From assembly GCA_024649995.1 (NCBI GenBank), contig JANKMX010000005.1:1-64000 (forward strand): DNA of 64,000 bases. The letters run 5' to 3'. Origin of the DNA: Gudongella sp. (lineage in GTDB: Bacteria; Bacillota; Clostridia; Tissierellales; Tissierellaceae). The notes beneath the pieces were generated by a model, which ran no database searches, was not told the origin of the DNA, and saw nothing but the letters and a program-made list of their open reading frames with translations. Below, piece by piece: positions 46,097 to 60,227 of the stretch. How positions within the stretch are numbered: the stretch's first letter is position 1; every line of letters begins with the position of its first letter. Position numbers and translations under genes: made by a program.

Positions 46097-46277
46097 AGGA
46101 ATGTTTCTGCGATGTGCGTTATTCTCATATAATTCAACCGACATATTAAATACGGGAGTCGGATGTCCGAAAGTGGATAACAAGCCCTCAATGAGGGGAC
46201 GTTAGAAGTTTTTGGCTAGACACCCACCTGCACTTACGCGGGTCTGAATTAGACGAGAGGACGGCATTGCGGGAATT
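46097..46277 (+). ncRNA. ssrS: 6S RNA
   Basis: Closing stem TTTCTGCGATGT (46104-46115) pairs over 12 bp (with G-U) with GCATTGCGGGAA (46264-46275); 6S-like ACCGACATATTAAATACGGGAGTCGG, AGAAGTTTTTGGCTAGACACCCACCTGC-N-GCGGGT; flanked by promoter and terminator, no ORF. Confidence 0.85.
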
Positions 46278-46286
46278 AATCTGAAA

Positions 46287-51777: not shown

Positions 51778-52251
51778 ATGGATGTAACCTTGACACTGGC
51801 GGATTTGCTAAAGCTGGTTTTGTTTCTATTGGGCATAGGGGTTCTTGGATACTTACTCCTTATTTTGAGGAATGTCAACAAGGTTTTAGGTCAAGCTGAA
51901 GCCATGTTGGAAGCTAACGTAAATGAAATTGATACAACAATAAAGCAGCTGCCTGAAATTACCGAGAACGTGAATAAGATTACCAATGAAGCCAATAAGA
52001 TGATTTCGGAGATGTCACCGGACTTGACCGGTGTTGTGAGGAATGTGAATGGAATAACCACCAAGATAGATGACATGGCAAATGTAATTGATAATACAGG
52101 TCACAAGGTTGGAGACACCGTTGACGTTCTATCGGAAACTCTGGCTGAAACTGCATTGGCTTTCCAGTTTAACGCCAAATCAGTTACATCGTACATTGAG
52201 ATTATCAAGGAGATAATAGAAATTGTACGAGACAGCATCAAAAAGTACTAA
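51778..52251 (+). CDS. DUF948/YtxG-like membrane protein
   Basis: N-term TM then LRNVNKVLGQAEAMLEANVNEIDTTIKQLPEITENVNKITNEANKMI; follows YtxH gene. Confidence 0.8.
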   Translation: MDVTLTLADLLKLVLFLLGIGVLGYLLLILRNVNKVLGQAEAMLEANVNEIDTTIKQLPEITENVNKITNEANKMISEMSPDLTGVVRNVNGITTKIDDMANVIDNTGHKVGDTVDVLSETLAETALAFQFNAKSVTSYIEIIKEIIEIVRDSIKKY

Positions 52252-52275
52252 TAGAGCCCAATGGGCTCTATTTTC
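52251..52275 (+). terminator. terminator after DUF948 gene
   Basis: ATAGAGCCC-AAT-GGGCTCTATTTT. Confidence 0.8.
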
Positions 52276-52377
52276 TTGTTTAAATCTCTAGGACATGTGG
52301 CAAATAACTGGTATAATAATATAAAGTATTATGCGTCCAAATTATTCAATGACAAAGTGCGGAACGGAGAATTAGAT

Positions 52378-53262
52378 ATGAAAAAGATAAAATTCATCAT
52401 AAACCCTTCTTCAGGCAGACAGGCCATGGAGAGAAAAATTGACAACCTATGTAAAATGCTGCTGGATGATGGATATATAGTCGGCAAATCCTTTACAAGG
52501 AAAAAATATGATGCCATGTTTGAAGCCAGGGAAAGCTGCAAGGATGGGTTTGACCTGATTGTTGCCTGCGGAGGTGATGGAACTGTCAATGAGGTGGTCA
52601 AGGGTATTATGACCAGTGAGAATAGAGTGCCCTTGGCAATAATGGCAAGCGGAACCGTCAATGATTTTGCCAATTATCTTCAGATTCCCAGAACCTCAGA
52701 GGAATTTTTCAATATGATTAAAAAGGAAAATATAATAGAGGTGGACCTGGGAAAAGTGAATGATGATTACTTTGTAAACGTTGCAGCAGGTGGACTCTTG
52801 ACGAAGGTAGGGTATCAGGTTCCCTCGGATATGAAGGCAGTTTTAGGCAGGATGGCCTATTATCTTGAAGGACTGAGAGAGCTTGTGAATCAGGGTCTTG
52901 AACCTGTTAAGGTAAAAATAACCAGCGAGGAGCATACTGGAGAAGAAGAGATCCTGTTGTTCGTTGTATCAAACAGTTCGTCAATAGGAGGCTTCAAGAG
53001 GCTGGCTCCTGAGGCAGATGTGCTTGATGGCCTTCTTGATGTGGTTCTCATAAAGAATGCTGATATTGGAGAATTGGCGAATATTTTTGTGAATGTCCTT
53101 ACTGGTGAACACATCCGACACTCAAAGGTGGTTTATTATAAAACCAGAGAGGTGAGAATCGATGCTGAGGATGCCCTGGTTGTTGATGTGGACGGGGAAT
53201 ATGGAGGAAAGCTGCCAGCCCACTTCAAGGTTATACCAAAGGGATTGAAAATACTGGTTTAG
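52378..53262 (+). CDS. diacylglycerol/lipid kinase family protein (YegS/BmrU/DgkB-like)
   Basis: KIKFIINPSSGRQAMERKIDNLC...LIVACGGDGTVNEVVKGIM...LAIMASGTVNDFANYL...LLDVVLIKN. Confidence 0.94.
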   Translation: MKKIKFIINPSSGRQAMERKIDNLCKMLLDDGYIVGKSFTRKKYDAMFEARESCKDGFDLIVACGGDGTVNEVVKGIMTSENRVPLAIMASGTVNDFANYLQIPRTSEEFFNMIKKENIIEVDLGKVNDDYFVNVAAGGLLTKVGYQVPSDMKAVLGRMAYYLEGLRELVNQGLEPVKVKITSEEHTGEEEILLFVVSNSSSIGGFKRLAPEADVLDGLLDVVLIKNADIGELANIFVNVLTGEHIRHSKVVYYKTREVRIDAEDALVVDVDGEYGGKLPAHFKVIPKGLKILV

Positions 53263-53272
53263 GAGGTTTTTT

Positions 53273-53716
53273 ATGACACAGATCATTTCAGAGCATGTGG
53301 ATTCAATTGAGGAGTACCTAAGAAAGGTGGATTATATCATCAGAAAAAAGGGGAGGGTGATCCTAAGTGATTTCAATATCACCGTTCCCCAGTTTACTGC
53401 TTTGCAGATACTGATAAACAATGGTGATATGACAATAAGTGAATTGAGCCAGAAGATGGATCTTGCATGTAGCACCATAACCGATCTCATTGACAGGATG
53501 GAGAAAACAAACCTGGTCAGGAGAAGGAAGGATGAGCAGGATAAACGCGTTGTACGGGTGGAGGTGCTCCAGGAAGGTCATGATATTCTGGCAAGGGTTC
53601 TGGAAAAGAGAATAGAGTTTCTATCCGAGAAGCTAAAGGGAGTAACAGAAGAAGACAAAAGGACATTGCGTACAGCCCTTGAAAACCTTTATCTGGAGAT
53701 GAAGGAAGAAATTTAA
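53273..53716 (+). CDS. MarR-family transcriptional regulator
   Basis: VPQFTALQILINNGDMTISELSQKMDLACSTITDLIDRMEKTNLVRRRKDEQDKRVVRVEVLQEG. Confidence 0.95.
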   Translation: MTQIISEHVDSIEEYLRKVDYIIRKKGRVILSDFNITVPQFTALQILINNGDMTISELSQKMDLACSTITDLIDRMEKTNLVRRRKDEQDKRVVRVEVLQEGHDILARVLEKRIEFLSEKLKGVTEEDKRTLRTALENLYLEMKEEI

Positions 53717-53731: not shown

Positions 53732-56700
53732 ATGAAGCTAATAAACGGTCAAATCAGATTAATTGAAAAATTCGACACTGAAAATAGGGACAGGGCCTAT
53801 GTTTGCGAGCAGCTGGAAAATCCAGGTTTGGAATGCTTTGTAAAGATTCTGGATAGGAACAAGCACAATGCCTTGATTGAGGACTATATTGAAAAGATCG
53901 ACTTCTACAAGAGCATCAATCACAAGGGGATTCTTTCAACAATTGATTTTGGAACGGTTAAGACTGTAGATCTAAAGGAATCTTCCAGTGGCATGTATTA
54001 TGTTCTTTCAGAATATACTCCCTGGGATTCTCTTGACGTGGCAATGAGTTCATTGAATATAAATTCCCGGATCATCCTTGTCCTAAAATTGATAGAAGCC
54101 CTGGAATATTTGCATTTCAGGGGCATTTTCTATGACGTGTTGAGTCCTGAAAAAATATTCGTCAATTCTGAGGGTGACATTAGGCTACTGAATGTAACAT
54201 CCATTGTACATAGTAAATTGCAGGTTGATAATCTCAAAAGAATAAGAGAATATATTGCTCCTGAGAGCAAGGAAAACAACAATGGGAACAATGCCCAAAC
54301 CGATTGCTGGTCACTGGGTGTAATAGTGGGCAAATTATTCCCTGAGACAAGGTCAGAGCTACCGGCAGGGAAGCAAAACTTTATCAATGGTTTGATTAAA
54401 GATTTGATGGGCAGGAGTACAAGTCCCAGCGGAAAGCCACTGAGGGGTTATTTTGAAGCCTTAAGAAATGAATTTGGGATTGACTACACCAGAGATCTAA
54501 GAAAAGAAAGAGAAAGAATTCAATTAAACGTTTTGCCAGGAAGGAAACAAGATGATTACCACTATTATCTTTCAGGTAAATCCTTCCATGAGATATATGA
54601 AAAGGGATATTCAGGATTGATAGTTAATGGTAACGGTGGAATTGGAAAGAAGAAATATGTTCGTGAGATTTTTAGAAGAAGAGGACTTGAGGGTGGAAGG
54701 ACTTATGTAATTGAAGCTGGGGAGGTAGATTACTCAAGCATAGATTACTTCAAGGTTTTCCTGGTTCAGTTGTGCGAAGCCCTTGGGATAGACTATAGGG
54801 TTGACTCTGAATCCAACGACATTAAAATCCAGTTCAATGATTCCTTTGAACAGTTCAGATTGGACCAATTGGATTCAAAGCTGAAGCTTTTCAATTGCAT
54901 AACTGAAGATTTGATTAAGCTTTCAAAGAGAGAAACAATCTATTTGGGATTGATCAATATACACAACGCTGACTTGGAAATTTTCAATCTTTTTGATTTC
55001 ATAATTACAAAGTCAAAGGGCAAGAGAATATTTTTTGTGTTTTCAATTCAAAAAAGCAAGCTGACTGATGCTCGCAAGATGATAGTAATAAACCAATGGC
55101 AAAAAAATGGTCTATTTGAGGAGGTTCACCTTGAGAACCTCTCAAAGCTGGAGGCTGAAGAATATATTCATGCAATACTTGGAAACGAAAATGTTCCTTA
55201 CGAATTTTCAGATGCTTTATACAATGAAACCCTTGGTAATCCTCGCTATATTCGGGTTCTGATCAAGCATTTCATTGACAATGGAATTATCCGTATTGAT
55301 GAAAGTGGTCTTTGGACTACAACAACTGATGACTATAGAAGTTTCTATGACTCTGCAACCTTAAAAAAGACCATAGTAAGACAGATTAAATCCCTGAGCG
55401 CCAAGGAATTGAAGGTTTTGAAACTTCTGTCCTGCTTTAAATACCAGGCTGATATGACTGACTTCATGGAAATTTTGGGGATGGAGAGTCTGGAGTTTAG
55501 AGAGTTGCTCCTGGAGCTTGCAAATAAAGGTATAACGAGAATTGACATGCAAACTGAGAGGTCGATTTCATTTGTGGAAGGAGATTTCAAAAGACAGATT
55601 TACAGCGACCTGCCGGAAGAGGAGAGAGGGGAGCTTCATGGTAGAATCGCTGATGTTTTGTTGTCTAGAAGAGATGATAACCAGGTCATTAACTTCGATT
55701 CATTGATACATCATTTAAGTGAGTCCAGGCAGCTGGATAGGATGCTGAGGATTGTAATGCAAAGGCTCCATAAGGAAAAAAATAGATATAATGAAAACTC
55801 TGTCAATATTCTCGAAGCATGCTATAAGAGTTTAAGGGGGAAGGATCATCCATCCATATTGATGATATTAAAGTATCTGACGGAAGCTCTTTTGGCTCAA
55901 AGAAGATATTCGGAAGGAATGGATTATGGAAGAACATATGTTGATGAAGCACAAAGGAGGGGCGACTCAGAGCATAAAATACATGCTGAGCTTATTCAAC
56001 TTGAGTTTATGATTCGCGTTGGAGATTACAACGATGCATTTGAAATGATATCTGAGTATGAATCCATTGTTACTCTGGATGGAAATGAGGAGTACAGGAT
56101 TAACCTCTATAAGCTCAAGTCAATCATTTTCCAGATTCTGGATAGACTTGAAGAATCACAGGATGCCATAGACAAAGCCCTGCAACTATCCCAGGAATTC
56201 CATATACATGAGCATGATGGTGATCTATACAATCTTCAGGGTATAGGCAATTATCTTGTTGGGGATCATGAAAAAGCCTTGAAAAGCTATCACGAGTCAA
56301 TAGAGACCTATGTTCTGTCAGAGAGAGATTTTGACAGGATAAAGCCCTTGAATAATATTGGGAATCTATACAATGAAATCATTGGAGATCCTCAAGTAGC
56401 ACTTGACTACTATTTCCAATGTCTAAGGGTTTCCGATGAAAATGGCCTGTCCTCATTTCAGACAATTACATTGACCAATATCTGTGATGTATATCTGACC
56501 CTAGGCTCATATGATAATGCAAGAAGCTACATTGACAAGACCATAGAGCTATCCCACCTTAATGGAGACAGGATAAATGAGTTTCATGGGAATGTCTACA
56601 GGGGTGCTCTGGAGCTTTCCTTGCAGAACATGGAAGCTGCAACTGAAATATTTCTCAGGGTAAGGGAGTTTAACAAGGAGGAGCCAATCGTTGAAAAGGA

Positions 56701-59017
56701 AGTGATAGTCCATTATCTTGATTTCCTGGGACGTTTCTACATGGAGCTGGGGGACTATACTCTGGGTAAAATGTTCAGTAGAAATACGATGTATAAGGCA
56801 AAGGATTTCAATCCCAAGCTATTCTTCAGATCAAAGGCAAGAATCATTACCATAGATTCAATAATGAACCAGAAAATCGACAGGAGTCAAATAGAGGCTT
56901 TGTTTAAAGAGCAGGGTATAAATGCAAATGAATATGAAATAGCATCTTTTTTAATTGAAATGATGCATATCTGCCTTCATATACCAGATAAGTCAAGCTA
57001 TGACTTCTTAAAAAGTCTGTTTCTGAAGATAGGGTCACAAGGAGCAAGGGAGCTTTATCGCAATGACTTTGAAATCATGAATATACTGGAAGATGGCAAT
57101 AGCCAATATCTTGAAGATGTAATTGGGATATTGGAAAAGGGCAATAAGAAATTTTCTCAGTCCATATGCAGGTACTACGCATATGTGGGTGAAATGCTAT
57201 ATAGGGATGGTGACTACAAAAGAGCAGCAAAATACCTAATAAGATCCATGGACTTGGTTCAGACCAAAATTAATCAGATAGGCATTGGTGGATATAGGGA
57301 TAAGATATTGGCAAACTACAATATTCCAAGGATAAATAAAACACTGGATGAAATATTCAAAAGAGAGTTCAATATTTTTGCCGAGAAATCTAACCCAATG
57401 GAAATACAAGCCAGCTTGGTTGGAAGATACATATCCTTGCTGGACTACGCTCAGTATAATCAGCTGTTTCTTGATGATGAAGGTAAAGACCTGCCAGATA
57501 CAGTTGAAGGAGTATTATCCAGAATGACTGATGACTACAGATTCAATCTGGAAATCATACTCAAATATCTTCATCGTGAAACTGGAGCGAAGGATTCATT
57601 TATTAACATTTTCAAACTTGAAGAGATTGAAAATGATCAAAGGCTTATCAGAATGGGTGTGGGAGAATTTGAGATGAGCCAGTTTGTAGATAACAGCTTA
57701 CGGTCAGGTGGCACGGTGCTTTTCAATCGAGACCTGGATATTCTATCAATGGATATAAGCAAAGAATACTTTGACAGGAGGCTAAGTGGACTTATTGGAG
57801 TACCCATAATGGAACCTGCTGGTAATGATATTAAATTTGAAAGAAGGTCATCCAACAGGAAAGGCAAGGTGTTGGGGTATGTATACCTCCAGACTGACAG
57901 CGCAATAAACAGATTTGACCAGGAAAGGCTTCTATTGTCAATCAGCATGGCAAAATTGATTTATCTTAATCTGGAGAATAGGAAGCTTCATAGAAGAGCC
58001 AATTATGACAGGTTGACCAATGTGCTGAGTCGTGAAACCATTGAGAGTGAGCTTGAGGAGATAATTGAGGTTTATAATGGAACTGAAAGTGAGTTTTCAG
58101 TGCTTATGATGGACATTGACAGGTTCAAGGATATTAACGATACCTATGGTCATCAGAAGGGAGACCAGATTTTAGGCAGAATTGGTGAGATTTTAAATGA
58201 AAGCACAAGATCCAGCGATCGTGTCGGAAGATATGGAGGAGAGGAATTTTTGGTTCTGCTTGAAAATATTTCAATCGATGATACAGTATCCGTTGCAGAG
58301 GAGATTAGACGTTCAGTTTATGAGGATAGAAGATTTGCCATTGATAGAAAGGTTACCTTAAGTATTGGAATAGCACATTATCCTTATCATGGAACCTCAA
58401 AGGAGGAGCTAATTTACAAGGCGGATCAGGCACTGTATTTTGCCAAGGAAATGCTTGGGAGGAATAAAGTAGCTGTTTGGAATAACGATATGGAGAAAAT
58501 CGAGAACATCAGCTCAGTGGGAAACAAGGTTACTATGGAGGTTTTTGGGAGAAGTCAGAATAGTATTGTATCCCTGATGGATATAGCCGTACTTTCCAGA
58601 TCACTTGAAACAATAGATAAAAAGCTATTTCGTTTTTTGGGGGCCATCAATGAGAGTATTGACGCTGACTTAAGCTCTATATTGATTATTGATGACGGAG
58701 TTGTTATAAACCAGTTCACTAGAGAGGGAGTAGCTAGCGGCTGGAGTGATAACAAGAAAATAGCTGAAGGTATGATAGGTAAAATTCTTGAGACAAGGGA
58801 ATCCTCATTATCTGTTAACTGGGCTGGTGCGGTGTACAATATGGGTACAGTAGATATAGCATCACTCAAATCCATAATAATGACTCCTGTTATGGTAGGT
58901 GATTCCATCAAGGCGATGGTTTATTGTGAAGCCAGCTTAAGGAACAAGGATTTCACATCTGCAGACGTCATGGCAGTGGAAGTTTTAAGTGGAGTATTTT
59001 CCGTAAATTTAGTATAA
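53732..59017 (+). CDS. 1761-aa multidomain sensor: Ser/Thr pseudokinase-like - degenerate NTPase - TPR - GAF - GGDEF - GAF
   Basis: FVKIL (VAIK-like Lys), FYDVLSPEKIFV (HRD loop degenerate), LLNVTS (DFG lost), YIAPES..DCWSLGV; NGNGGIGKKKY (degenerate P-loop); TPR repeats; RSSDRVGRYGGEEFLVLL (I-site + GGEEF). Confidence 0.88.
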   Translation: MKLINGQIRLIEKFDTENRDRAYVCEQLENPGLECFVKILDRNKHNALIEDYIEKIDFYKSINHKGILSTIDFGTVKTVDLKESSSGMYYVLSEYTPWDSLDVAMSSLNINSRIILVLKLIEALEYLHFRGIFYDVLSPEKIFVNSEGDIRLLNVTSIVHSKLQVDNLKRIREYIAPESKENNNGNNAQTDCWSLGVIVGKLFPETRSELPAGKQNFINGLIKDLMGRSTSPSGKPLRGYFEALRNEFGIDYTRDLRKERERIQLNVLPGRKQDDYHYYLSGKSFHEIYEKGYSGLIVNGNGGIGKKKYVREIFRRRGLEGGRTYVIEAGEVDYSSIDYFKVFLVQLCEALGIDYRVDSESNDIKIQFNDSFEQFRLDQLDSKLKLFNCITEDLIKLSKRETIYLGLINIHNADLEIFNLFDFIITKSKGKRIFFVFSIQKSKLTDARKMIVINQWQKNGLFEEVHLENLSKLEAEEYIHAILGNENVPYEFSDALYNETLGNPRYIRVLIKHFIDNGIIRIDESGLWTTTTDDYRSFYDSATLKKTIVRQIKSLSAKELKVLKLLSCFKYQADMTDFMEILGMESLEFRELLLELANKGITRIDMQTERSISFVEGDFKRQIYSDLPEEERGELHGRIADVLLSRRDDNQVINFDSLIHHLSESRQLDRMLRIVMQRLHKEKNRYNENSVNILEACYKSLRGKDHPSILMILKYLTEALLAQRRYSEGMDYGRTYVDEAQRRGDSEHKIHAELIQLEFMIRVGDYNDAFEMISEYESIVTLDGNEEYRINLYKLKSIIFQILDRLEESQDAIDKALQLSQEFHIHEHDGDLYNLQGIGNYLVGDHEKALKSYHESIETYVLSERDFDRIKPLNNIGNLYNEIIGDPQVALDYYFQCLRVSDENGLSSFQTITLTNICDVYLTLGSYDNARSYIDKTIELSHLNGDRINEFHGNVYRGALELSLQNMEAATEIFLRVREFNKEEPIVEKEVIVHYLDFLGRFYMELGDYTLGKMFSRNTMYKAKDFNPKLFFRSKARIITIDSIMNQKIDRSQIEALFKEQGINANEYEIASFLIEMMHICLHIPDKSSYDFLKSLFLKIGSQGARELYRNDFEIMNILEDGNSQYLEDVIGILEKGNKKFSQSICRYYAYVGEMLYRDGDYKRAAKYLIRSMDLVQTKINQIGIGGYRDKILANYNIPRINKTLDEIFKREFNIFAEKSNPMEIQASLVGRYISLLDYAQYNQLFLDDEGKDLPDTVEGVLSRMTDDYRFNLEIILKYLHRETGAKDSFINIFKLEEIENDQRLIRMGVGEFEMSQFVDNSLRSGGTVLFNRDLDILSMDISKEYFDRRLSGLIGVPIMEPAGNDIKFERRSSNRKGKVLGYVYLQTDSAINRFDQERLLLSISMAKLIYLNLENRKLHRRANYDRLTNVLSRETIESELEEIIEVYNGTESEFSVLMMDIDRFKDINDTYGHQKGDQILGRIGEILNESTRSSDRVGRYGGEEFLVLLENISIDDTVSVAEEIRRSVYEDRRFAIDRKVTLSIGIAHYPYHGTSKEELIYKADQALYFAKEMLGRNKVAVWNNDMEKIENISSVGNKVTMEVFGRSQNSIVSLMDIAVLSRSLETIDKKLFRFLGAINESIDADLSSILIIDDGVVINQFTREGVASGWSDNKKIAEGMIGKILETRESSLSVNWAGAVYNMGTVDIASLKSIIMTPVMVGDSIKAMVYCEASLRNKDFTSADVMAVEVLSGVFSVNLV

Positions 59018-59069: not shown

Positions 59070-60086
59070 ATGGCAACTACAATAAAGGATGTTGCAAAGC
59101 TTGCAAAGGTTTCCATATCTACGGTTTCAAGAGTAATAAACGACTCGAAGCCTGTTAGTCCAGAAGCAAGGAGAAGGGTGCTTAAGGCAATTGAAGATTT
59201 GGGATATAAGCCAAATGAGGTGGCAAGAAGCCTGGTCACCAAGAAATCGAACCTCATAGGAATAATTGTGGATGACATCGGAAGCTCATATGTAGCCCAG
59301 ATAATCCGTGGGGTTGAAGAAGTGGGAAGGATGTACAATTATGACATCCTGTTGTGTAGCAGCTATGGGGACAAGGAAGCGGAAATGAGGTTTGTGCAGC
59401 TACTTATGCAAAAACAGGTGGCTGGAATAATCATGGTTTCAGAAATACTCAATGCTGAAGTTCTGACGTATTTGGACATGTCAAAGATCCCTTTCATTTA
59501 TCTGAACAAGTATTACAATGTACTGGAAAGTCCGACTGTTGCAATAAATAACAGAGAGGCTAGCGACAAGGTCATGAAGCATCTCATCGATGAAGGTCAC
59601 AGGAGGATAGCATATGTGACACAGGAAAAGGATATGGAGCTGACCATAGAGAAACAGAAGATCGAGGCCTACAGAGAGTGGATGTCTTCAATAGAAGAAG
59701 CACCATTGGTATTTGAGGTGGACGGCCACAACATATCAGATGGCTATGATTTAGGCGAGAAAATCAAAGATCAGCTTCTTGATGGTAGAATAACAGCAGT
59801 TTACTGCTGCGAGGACGAGATTGCCCTTGGATTGATAAATTATTTCTATGATCATGGCATCAGAGTCCCTGAGGACATTTCTGTCGTGGGATATGGGGAC
59901 ATAAGTCTTGCTTCCTACTATAGACCAAAACTTACAACAATTAAGGAGCCATATTATGACATTGGAGCTGTTTCCATAAGAAGAATCCTCAAGGTGCTTC
60001 AGGGTGAAAAAATTGAAGAGCAGACATTGGTTTTGCCGGTGCAGCTTATAGAACGGGATAGCACTTCAAAACCAAAAAATATTTGA
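59070..60086 (+). CDS. LacI-family transcriptional regulator
   Basis: ATTIKDVAKLAKVSISTVSRVINDSKPVSPEARRRVLKAIEDLGYKPNEVARSLVTKKSNLIGIIVDDI. Confidence 0.97.
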   Translation: MATTIKDVAKLAKVSISTVSRVINDSKPVSPEARRRVLKAIEDLGYKPNEVARSLVTKKSNLIGIIVDDIGSSYVAQIIRGVEEVGRMYNYDILLCSSYGDKEAEMRFVQLLMQKQVAGIIMVSEILNAEVLTYLDMSKIPFIYLNKYYNVLESPTVAINNREASDKVMKHLIDEGHRRIAYVTQEKDMELTIEKQKIEAYREWMSSIEEAPLVFEVDGHNISDGYDLGEKIKDQLLDGRITAVYCCEDEIALGLINYFYDHGIRVPEDISVVGYGDISLASYYRPKLTTIKEPYYDIGAVSIRRILKVLQGEKIEEQTLVLPVQLIERDSTSKPKNI

Positions 60087-60140: not shown

Positions 60141-60227
60141 ATGTGTAAGACATTATTGCTTCACAAATTTCAAAAACCAAGCCACAGATTATTCTGTGGC
60201 TTTTTTTGTGCCACTTTATCTAGATAG
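60141..60227 (+). CDS. putative 28-aa leader peptide upstream of hutH
   Basis: ATG TGT AAG... = MCKTLLLHKFQKPSHRLFCGFFCATLSR, preceded by GTGGGGATA; overlaps terminator hairpin. Confidence 0.3.
   Translation: MCKTLLLHKFQKPSHRLFCGFFCATLSR
60179..60207 (+). terminator. terminator / attenuator hairpin upstream of hutH
   Basis: AAGCCACAG-ATTATT-CTGTGGCTTTTTTT. Confidence 0.8.

Follow-up and report, generated by a model that had tools for sequence, protein, structure and literature searches.

STAND proteins with a TPR sensor, such as MalT and PH0952, are closed when bound to ADP and multimerize with ATP upon inducer binding (PMC6468293). The layout analyzed here was itself noted briefly in 2005: Clostridium thermocellum ATCC 27405 encodes an STYK of 1826 aa in which an N-terminal kinase is followed by six TPRs and, at the C-terminus, a GGDEF domain (BMC Genomics 2005, PMC1262709). 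The passage describes the protein as a kinase and mentions neither an NTPase nor a GAF domain. Searching the GGDEF, pseudokinase, and TPR literature in a limited library, we found no other paper on the family and, as far as we searched, it has not been studied since.

The gene under study is a single open frame within the window, by which we mean the whole 64,000-nucleotide stretch of DNA that was analyzed. As the first-pass annotation had reported, it encodes 1761 aa, and the frame runs to its stop codon without an internal stop. The domain order proposed at that stage (kinase, NTPase, TPR, GAF, GGDEF, GAF) is reproduced by Pfam and by family profiles. All the motifs listed then are present, with one correction: the catalytic-loop motif had been placed at 54131, one codon late, and begins at 54128. 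The features of the gene are given below, with the evidence for each in brackets.

53732..59017 (+): giant gene encoding a pseudokinase-STAND NTPase-TPR-GAF-GGDEF-GAF protein of 1761 aa (frame, Pfam, relatives).
53732..54526 (+): pseudokinase domain, aa 1-265; Lys38 of VAIK is kept and the Gly-rich loop is absent (Pfam Pkinase 2.3e-12 at aa 37-203; family profile 4e-23).
54128..54160 (+): catalytic-loop position FYDVLSPEKIF, aa 133-143; HRD is Y-D-V and the loop Asn is Lys (alignment).
54191..54199 (+): DFG position, which reads NVT, aa 154-156 (alignment).
54533..55291 (+): NTPase core of AAA_16/STAND type, aa 268-520 (AAA_16 in 13/17 relatives; TIGR03903 match).
Within 54533..55291 (+): motifs of the NTPase core, a GRxxE-type motif before the P-loop and GNP at aa 502-504 (motif counts).
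54626..54658 (+): Walker A NGNGGIGKKKY, from aa 299; Lys replaces Ser/Thr (alignment).
54935..54970 (+): Walker B position IYLGLINIHNAD, without the usual acidic residues (alignment).
55292..55801 (+): winged-helix/arm region of the putative STAND switch, aa 521-690 (family profile against Apaf-1, E 0.005).
55802..57271 (+): TPR superhelix, aa 691-1180 (Pfam TPR_12 6.8e-19, TPR_2, TPR_7).
57494..57976 (+): GAF-like domain 1, aa 1255-1415 (family profile against the PDE2A GAF structure, E 0.0013).
57989..58477 (+): GGDEF diguanylate cyclase domain, aa 1420-1582 (Pfam GGDEF 1.1e-40 at aa 1423-1573; TIGR00254 1.3e-44).
58208..58219 (+): inhibitory I-site RSSD, aa 1493-1496 (sequence; RxxD in 65/70 members).
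58235..58249 (+): active-site GGEEF, aa 1502-1506 (sequence; catalytic set intact in 70/70).
58499..58576 (+): linker from GGDEF to GAF 2, aa 1590-1615; the family signature is rewritten in the window protein (alignment).
58589..59014 (+): GAF-like domain 2, aa 1620-1761 (Pfam GAF_2 0.009, weak; profile against GAF structure 3ksg, 0.0014).

A short-pattern scan of the contigs of the window's own genome gave a GGDEF match only. Because the domain order and the length recur in 70 aligned relatives, this layout is not a product of chance.

Matches to the protein occur in 23 of the 28 genomes of the window's family and, within its order, in 62 of the 249 genomes sampled, most of them full-length or near it and a few partial. 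The relatives are nearly always single copy, with about 25-52% identity, and their presence across the order follows taxonomy closely. N-terminal searches of the class brought in more full-length members (1754-1842 aa) from several additional families, and a sampled search of the phylum found two genomes in another class that carry members. The alignment used throughout comprises 70 full-length members; two later members from outside the class are not counted. This distribution marks the pseudokinase-NTPase-TPR-GAF-GGDEF-GAF protein as an old family kept across Firmicutes and not as a one-off. Extra copies do occur: full-length copies stand in tandem in an f39 genome (L134 4239-15169 in G398), and divergent copies lie side by side in a genome of the window's order (L073 and L074 in G113).

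One member, L127 from genome G581, connects the family to the 2005 listing. When started at its second Met, L127 is exactly 1826 aa long, and it aligns along its length to the family profile with 1514 bits. G581, which we identify as C. thermocellum, has 29 cohesin matches; a scaffoldin of ~1853 aa is among them, with a cohesin very close to that of CipA (solved structure 1aoh). On the basis of length, domain order, and species, L127 is probably the STYK described in PMC1262709. The first-pass annotation had called the architecture undescribed. That reading is ruled out by the listing of a kinase-TPR-GGDEF protein of 1826 aa, a length equal to that of L127. L127 reads FFLKNLDHKS where HRDxxPxN is expected and IGMP in place of DFG; because HRD and DFG are absent, it is probably a pseudokinase as well. 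Thus, the published Ser/Thr kinase of C. thermocellum (1826 aa) is suggested to be a pseudokinase.

The N-terminal domain had been proposed to combine a kinase fold with a dead active site in which HRD and DFG are replaced, and both halves of the proposal hold across the family. Compared with solved Ser/Thr kinases, by sequence only, the N-terminal family profile aligns along the entire domain (4e-23); a single-sequence AlphaFold model of the domain, with a pLDDT of 42, is uninformative. The catalytic Asp of HRD is Val136 in the window protein, and no member (0/70) has this residue in the H-x-D-[hydrophobic]-x-P-x-N setting. The closest remnant is HGNLDLKN in L129; L070, L140, and L141 have a D in the catalytic-Asp column of the alignment, with the motif otherwise unrecognizable in all three. 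A complete DFG is likewise found in 0/70 members, the DFG Asp being kept in 46, Lys38 in 45, and the loop Asn in 43. Since neither the catalytic Asp nor a full DFG occurs in any of the 70, the loss of kinase catalysis is an old and fixed trait of the family.

Counted by an NG86-type method, with dS saturated in some pairs, omega for the pseudokinase is 0.08-0.20 in close pairs, similar to the other domains. By these low values, the domain is maintained, and is not drifting, in most tested lineages. In one tested lineage, the f10 pair, omega is 0.34, the motifs decay, and the APE motif is also lost. Read from the alignment, the N-terminal domain is a pseudokinase without a catalytic base.

Proteins with the same N-terminal module order and live-looking kinases lie at a greater distance. 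This set (L142-L148 and L150) is related to the giant family by clear if distant homology (N-terminal matches of E 1e-49 to 1e-90) and carries a kinase, AAA_16, GAF, and mostly recognizable TPRs (all but L146 scanned). It differs from the giant family in that most of its proteins keep the catalytic-loop Asp and DFG, with the Asp present in L142-L144 and L146-L148, and in that the outputs are mostly other than GGDEF. The output is a histidine kinase in L142-L144, L148, and L150, in agreement with an earlier statement about related proteins; it is LuxR in L145 and GGDEF in L147. The set resembles the cyanobacterial "dual kinase" type, and it falls opposite the 70-member family across one branch with an SH-aLRT of 100. 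Because L147 joins an intact-looking kinase to AAA_16, GAF, and GGDEF, the kinase-NTPase-GAF-GGDEF combination itself belongs to ordinary domain shuffling. In another related NTPase-TPR protein, L154 (6580-10134, minus strand, in G357), the N-terminus has a class III nucleotide cyclase and a zinc ribbon where the kinase would be.

The first-pass annotation regarded both N-terminal enzymes as degenerate, which stands for the kinase, with its 0/70 catalytic Asp, and fails for the NTPase as a family-wide statement. Pfam reports AAA_16 in 13/17 relatives and not in the window protein, which TIGR03903 matches at aa 385-727 with 4.7e-9. The two local defects described earlier are confirmed by the alignment: Lys replaces the Ser/Thr of Walker A, and Walker B reads INIHN, in which an acidic residue is absent. 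Across the family, 68/70 members have K at the Walker A Lys position and 2/70 have R. The residue that follows it is S/T in 67/70, the exceptions being the window protein (K) and two f39 members (G). Among the 70 full-length members, GKK is unique to the window protein; outside them it recurs in L023, a partial sequence from a congener. A loose hhh[DE] pattern for Walker B passes in about 60/70 members and fails in the window's genus, in the sister genus g8 (where the acidic residues are shifted), and in f39. The reading of the NTPase as a family-wide degenerate enzyme is therefore ruled out by the Ser/Thr kept in 67 members. From these counts, NTPase decay is lineage-specific, and Walker B is clearly lost in few lineages, the window's genus among them.

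The remaining STAND features are better kept. GR of the GRxxE-type motif is present in 58-59 of the 70 members, and the GNP motif has its G in 70/70 and its P in 68/70. The family profile of the winged-helix/arm region aligns weakly with Apaf-1 (E 0.005). Set against the features of a STAND NTPase, the window protein lacks the K-[S/T] P-loop and the acidic Walker B and has the GRExE-like motif, the GxP motif, a winged-helix domain (by the weak Apaf-1 alignment), and a repeat sensor. In a single-contig congener genome (G002), a frame change splits the gene (L093, 6871-12122) into two ORFs, of 334 and 1403 aa; the break falls after Walker A and before Walker B and could be a sequencing error.

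At the other end of the protein, the GGDEF domain had been described as intact and equipped with an I-site, and so it proves. The window protein has GGEEF together with the residues for metal and guanine binding (DID, K, N, D, and K), and the catalytic set is intact in all 70 members. RSSD lies exactly five residues upstream of GGEEF, and RxxD is found in 65/70. Judged by these residues, the GGDEF output is never lost among the 70 members of the family. The two flanking GAF-like domains, also proposed earlier, are upheld by weak matches of both family profiles to GAF structures (0.0013 and 0.0014), and Pfam calls GAF_2 in 10/17 relatives, at best with 1.1e-6. The linker between GGDEF and the second GAF is marked throughout the family by a signature of the approximate form LAGI-x-[TS]GN-x(3)-D-[QN]RN-x-LA. 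Its conservation is nearly that of GGDEF itself (0.58 versus 0.61 mean majority), and the signature extends to members outside the class and is rewritten in the window protein. What was a single odd ORF is now a defined family with a pseudokinase under purifying selection, an NTPase, and an intact c-di-GMP synthase.

The window's own genome (G000) contains 18 GGDEF and 5 EAL matches, 6 c-di-GMP-I riboswitches, and 6 c-di-GMP-II matches, one of which is above the gathering score; a PilZ protein was not found in it. By these matches, the genome uses c-di-GMP. One riboswitch match, at C90:9162-9244, lies ahead of a 290-aa protein whose N-terminus resembles a signal peptide.

We propose that the giant protein works in the cytosol as a diguanylate cyclase under the control of a STAND-type switch, and we assign this reading, drawn from sequence, a probability of about 0.5. 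GGDEF catalysis requires two protomers to join two GTP. Binding of a signal to the TPR sensor, and perhaps to the GAFs too, would release a closed ADP form in the manner of MalT. The ATP form would then self-associate, so that the GGDEF domains meet and make c-di-GMP from two GTP, with the I-site supplying feedback on the cyclase. Because STAND proteins multimerize with ATP and GGDEF domains need two protomers, ATP-driven assembly would be expected to activate the cyclase. The pseudokinase would transfer no phosphate and would instead serve for docking or allosteric control. In the window's species, nucleotide-driven switching is unlikely because the P-loop and Walker B have decayed; in its genus, the switch would probably be run by protein or ligand binding alone. 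The c-di-GMP of this bacterium may act largely via riboswitches. More tentatively, at a little short of even odds, we regard the family as a whole as an ancient, mostly single-copy STAND-type switch with a cyclase effector and an obligate pseudokinase input or docking domain, which has become nucleotide-independent in some lineages.

Several considerations count against a STAND switch, among them the weak Apaf-1 match and the missing Pfam call of AAA_16 in the window protein. The decay of Walker A and B argues that ATP switching is dispensable in the window protein, and contacts between GAFs or TPRs alone could drive GGDEF dimerization. Pseudokinases and TPRs are common binding modules. A less likely reading is that the N-terminus is a protein-protein scaffold that localizes c-di-GMP synthesis, with GAF ligands controlling the cyclase and an NTPase that is no switch. 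The gene has stayed intact despite Walker A/B decay in the window's genus and some other lineages, and the conserved GGDEF-GAF linker hints at GAF control. However, a pure scaffold would need no P-loop residues, and these persist in 67/70 members from many families.

The gene lies in a conserved setting, which in the window consists of the following features.

52250..52272 (+): terminator-like hairpin ahead of the putative operon.
52290..52317 (+): candidate promoter AGGACA-16-TATAAT with TG before the -10 (consensus match only).
52378..53262 (+): dagK-like lipid kinase of the YegS/BmrU family, first gene of the putative operon (TIGR00147 239 bits, cut-off 119; conserved neighbor).
53273..53716 (+): MarR-family regulator, 15 bp upstream of the giant gene (conserved neighbor).
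59070..60086 (+): LacI/CcpA-like regulator, 52 bp downstream of the giant gene (directly downstream in 33 loci).
60179..60202 (+): terminator-like hairpin after lacI.

The gap between dagK and marR is 10 bp in the window, and the gap between marR and the giant gene has a median of 32 bp across loci. The conserved order is dagK-marR-giant gene-lacI, followed by hut genes, and same-strand neighbors among 59 loci are dagK in 38, marR in 34, lacI in 33, and hutH in 31. This gene block spans several bacterial families. The four genes from dagK to lacI are probably co-transcribed; their conserved order alone is no proof of a pathway. In several families, the region immediately upstream of the giant gene also contains a bactofilin gene and an M23 peptidase gene in reverse orientation, in most cases in the interval from dagK to marR (L056-L060, L062-L065, L069, L070, L091, L125, L126, and L136). 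The window also contains a 6S RNA at 46101-46279 (+), with 88.5 bits.

Could the gene instead be decaying in the window's species, the Walker A/B changes being steps toward loss? The window protein is one of the seven members that depart most from the family consensus, and congener G002 has the frame break in its NTPase. Against this, the 1761-codon frame is intact, the GGDEF catalytic residues and I-site are perfect, the neighboring genes keep their order, and in congener G003 the frame is unbroken (52% identity), which together make decay improbable. Some former pseudokinases act through other residues, for example by AMP transfer, and Lys, loop Asn, and DFG Asp are kept together in 25/70 members, so that nucleotide binding is possible there; nevertheless, an active kinase of an unusual type, relying on other residues and controlling the GGDEF output by its activity, is hard to credit when the HRD Asp and full DFG are missing from every member, the window protein lacks both the loop Asn and the DFG Asp, and in some f58 members most of the kinase motifs are gone and the remainder of the protein is kept (Pfam found no kinase match in one scanned f58 member).

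The reading we prefer, a diguanylate cyclase set by a STAND-type switch, places the family beside two kinds of known protein. The TOMM kinase/cyclase fusion (TIGR03903) likewise holds a kinase, a predicted ATPase, and a nucleotide cyclase in one chain; membership in that family is ruled out, at 34.6 bits against a cut-off of 705.75. The STAND ATPases MalT, PH0952, and AfsR share with the giant family an NTPase, a winged-helix/arm region, and a TPR sensor, with an effector at one end. Unlike them, the giant family has a GGDEF effector and a pseudokinase ahead of the NTPase, and its switching is predicted. If our reading is correct, STAND assembly would control second-messenger synthesis, linking ATP-driven assembly of the MalT/Apaf kind directly to c-di-GMP.
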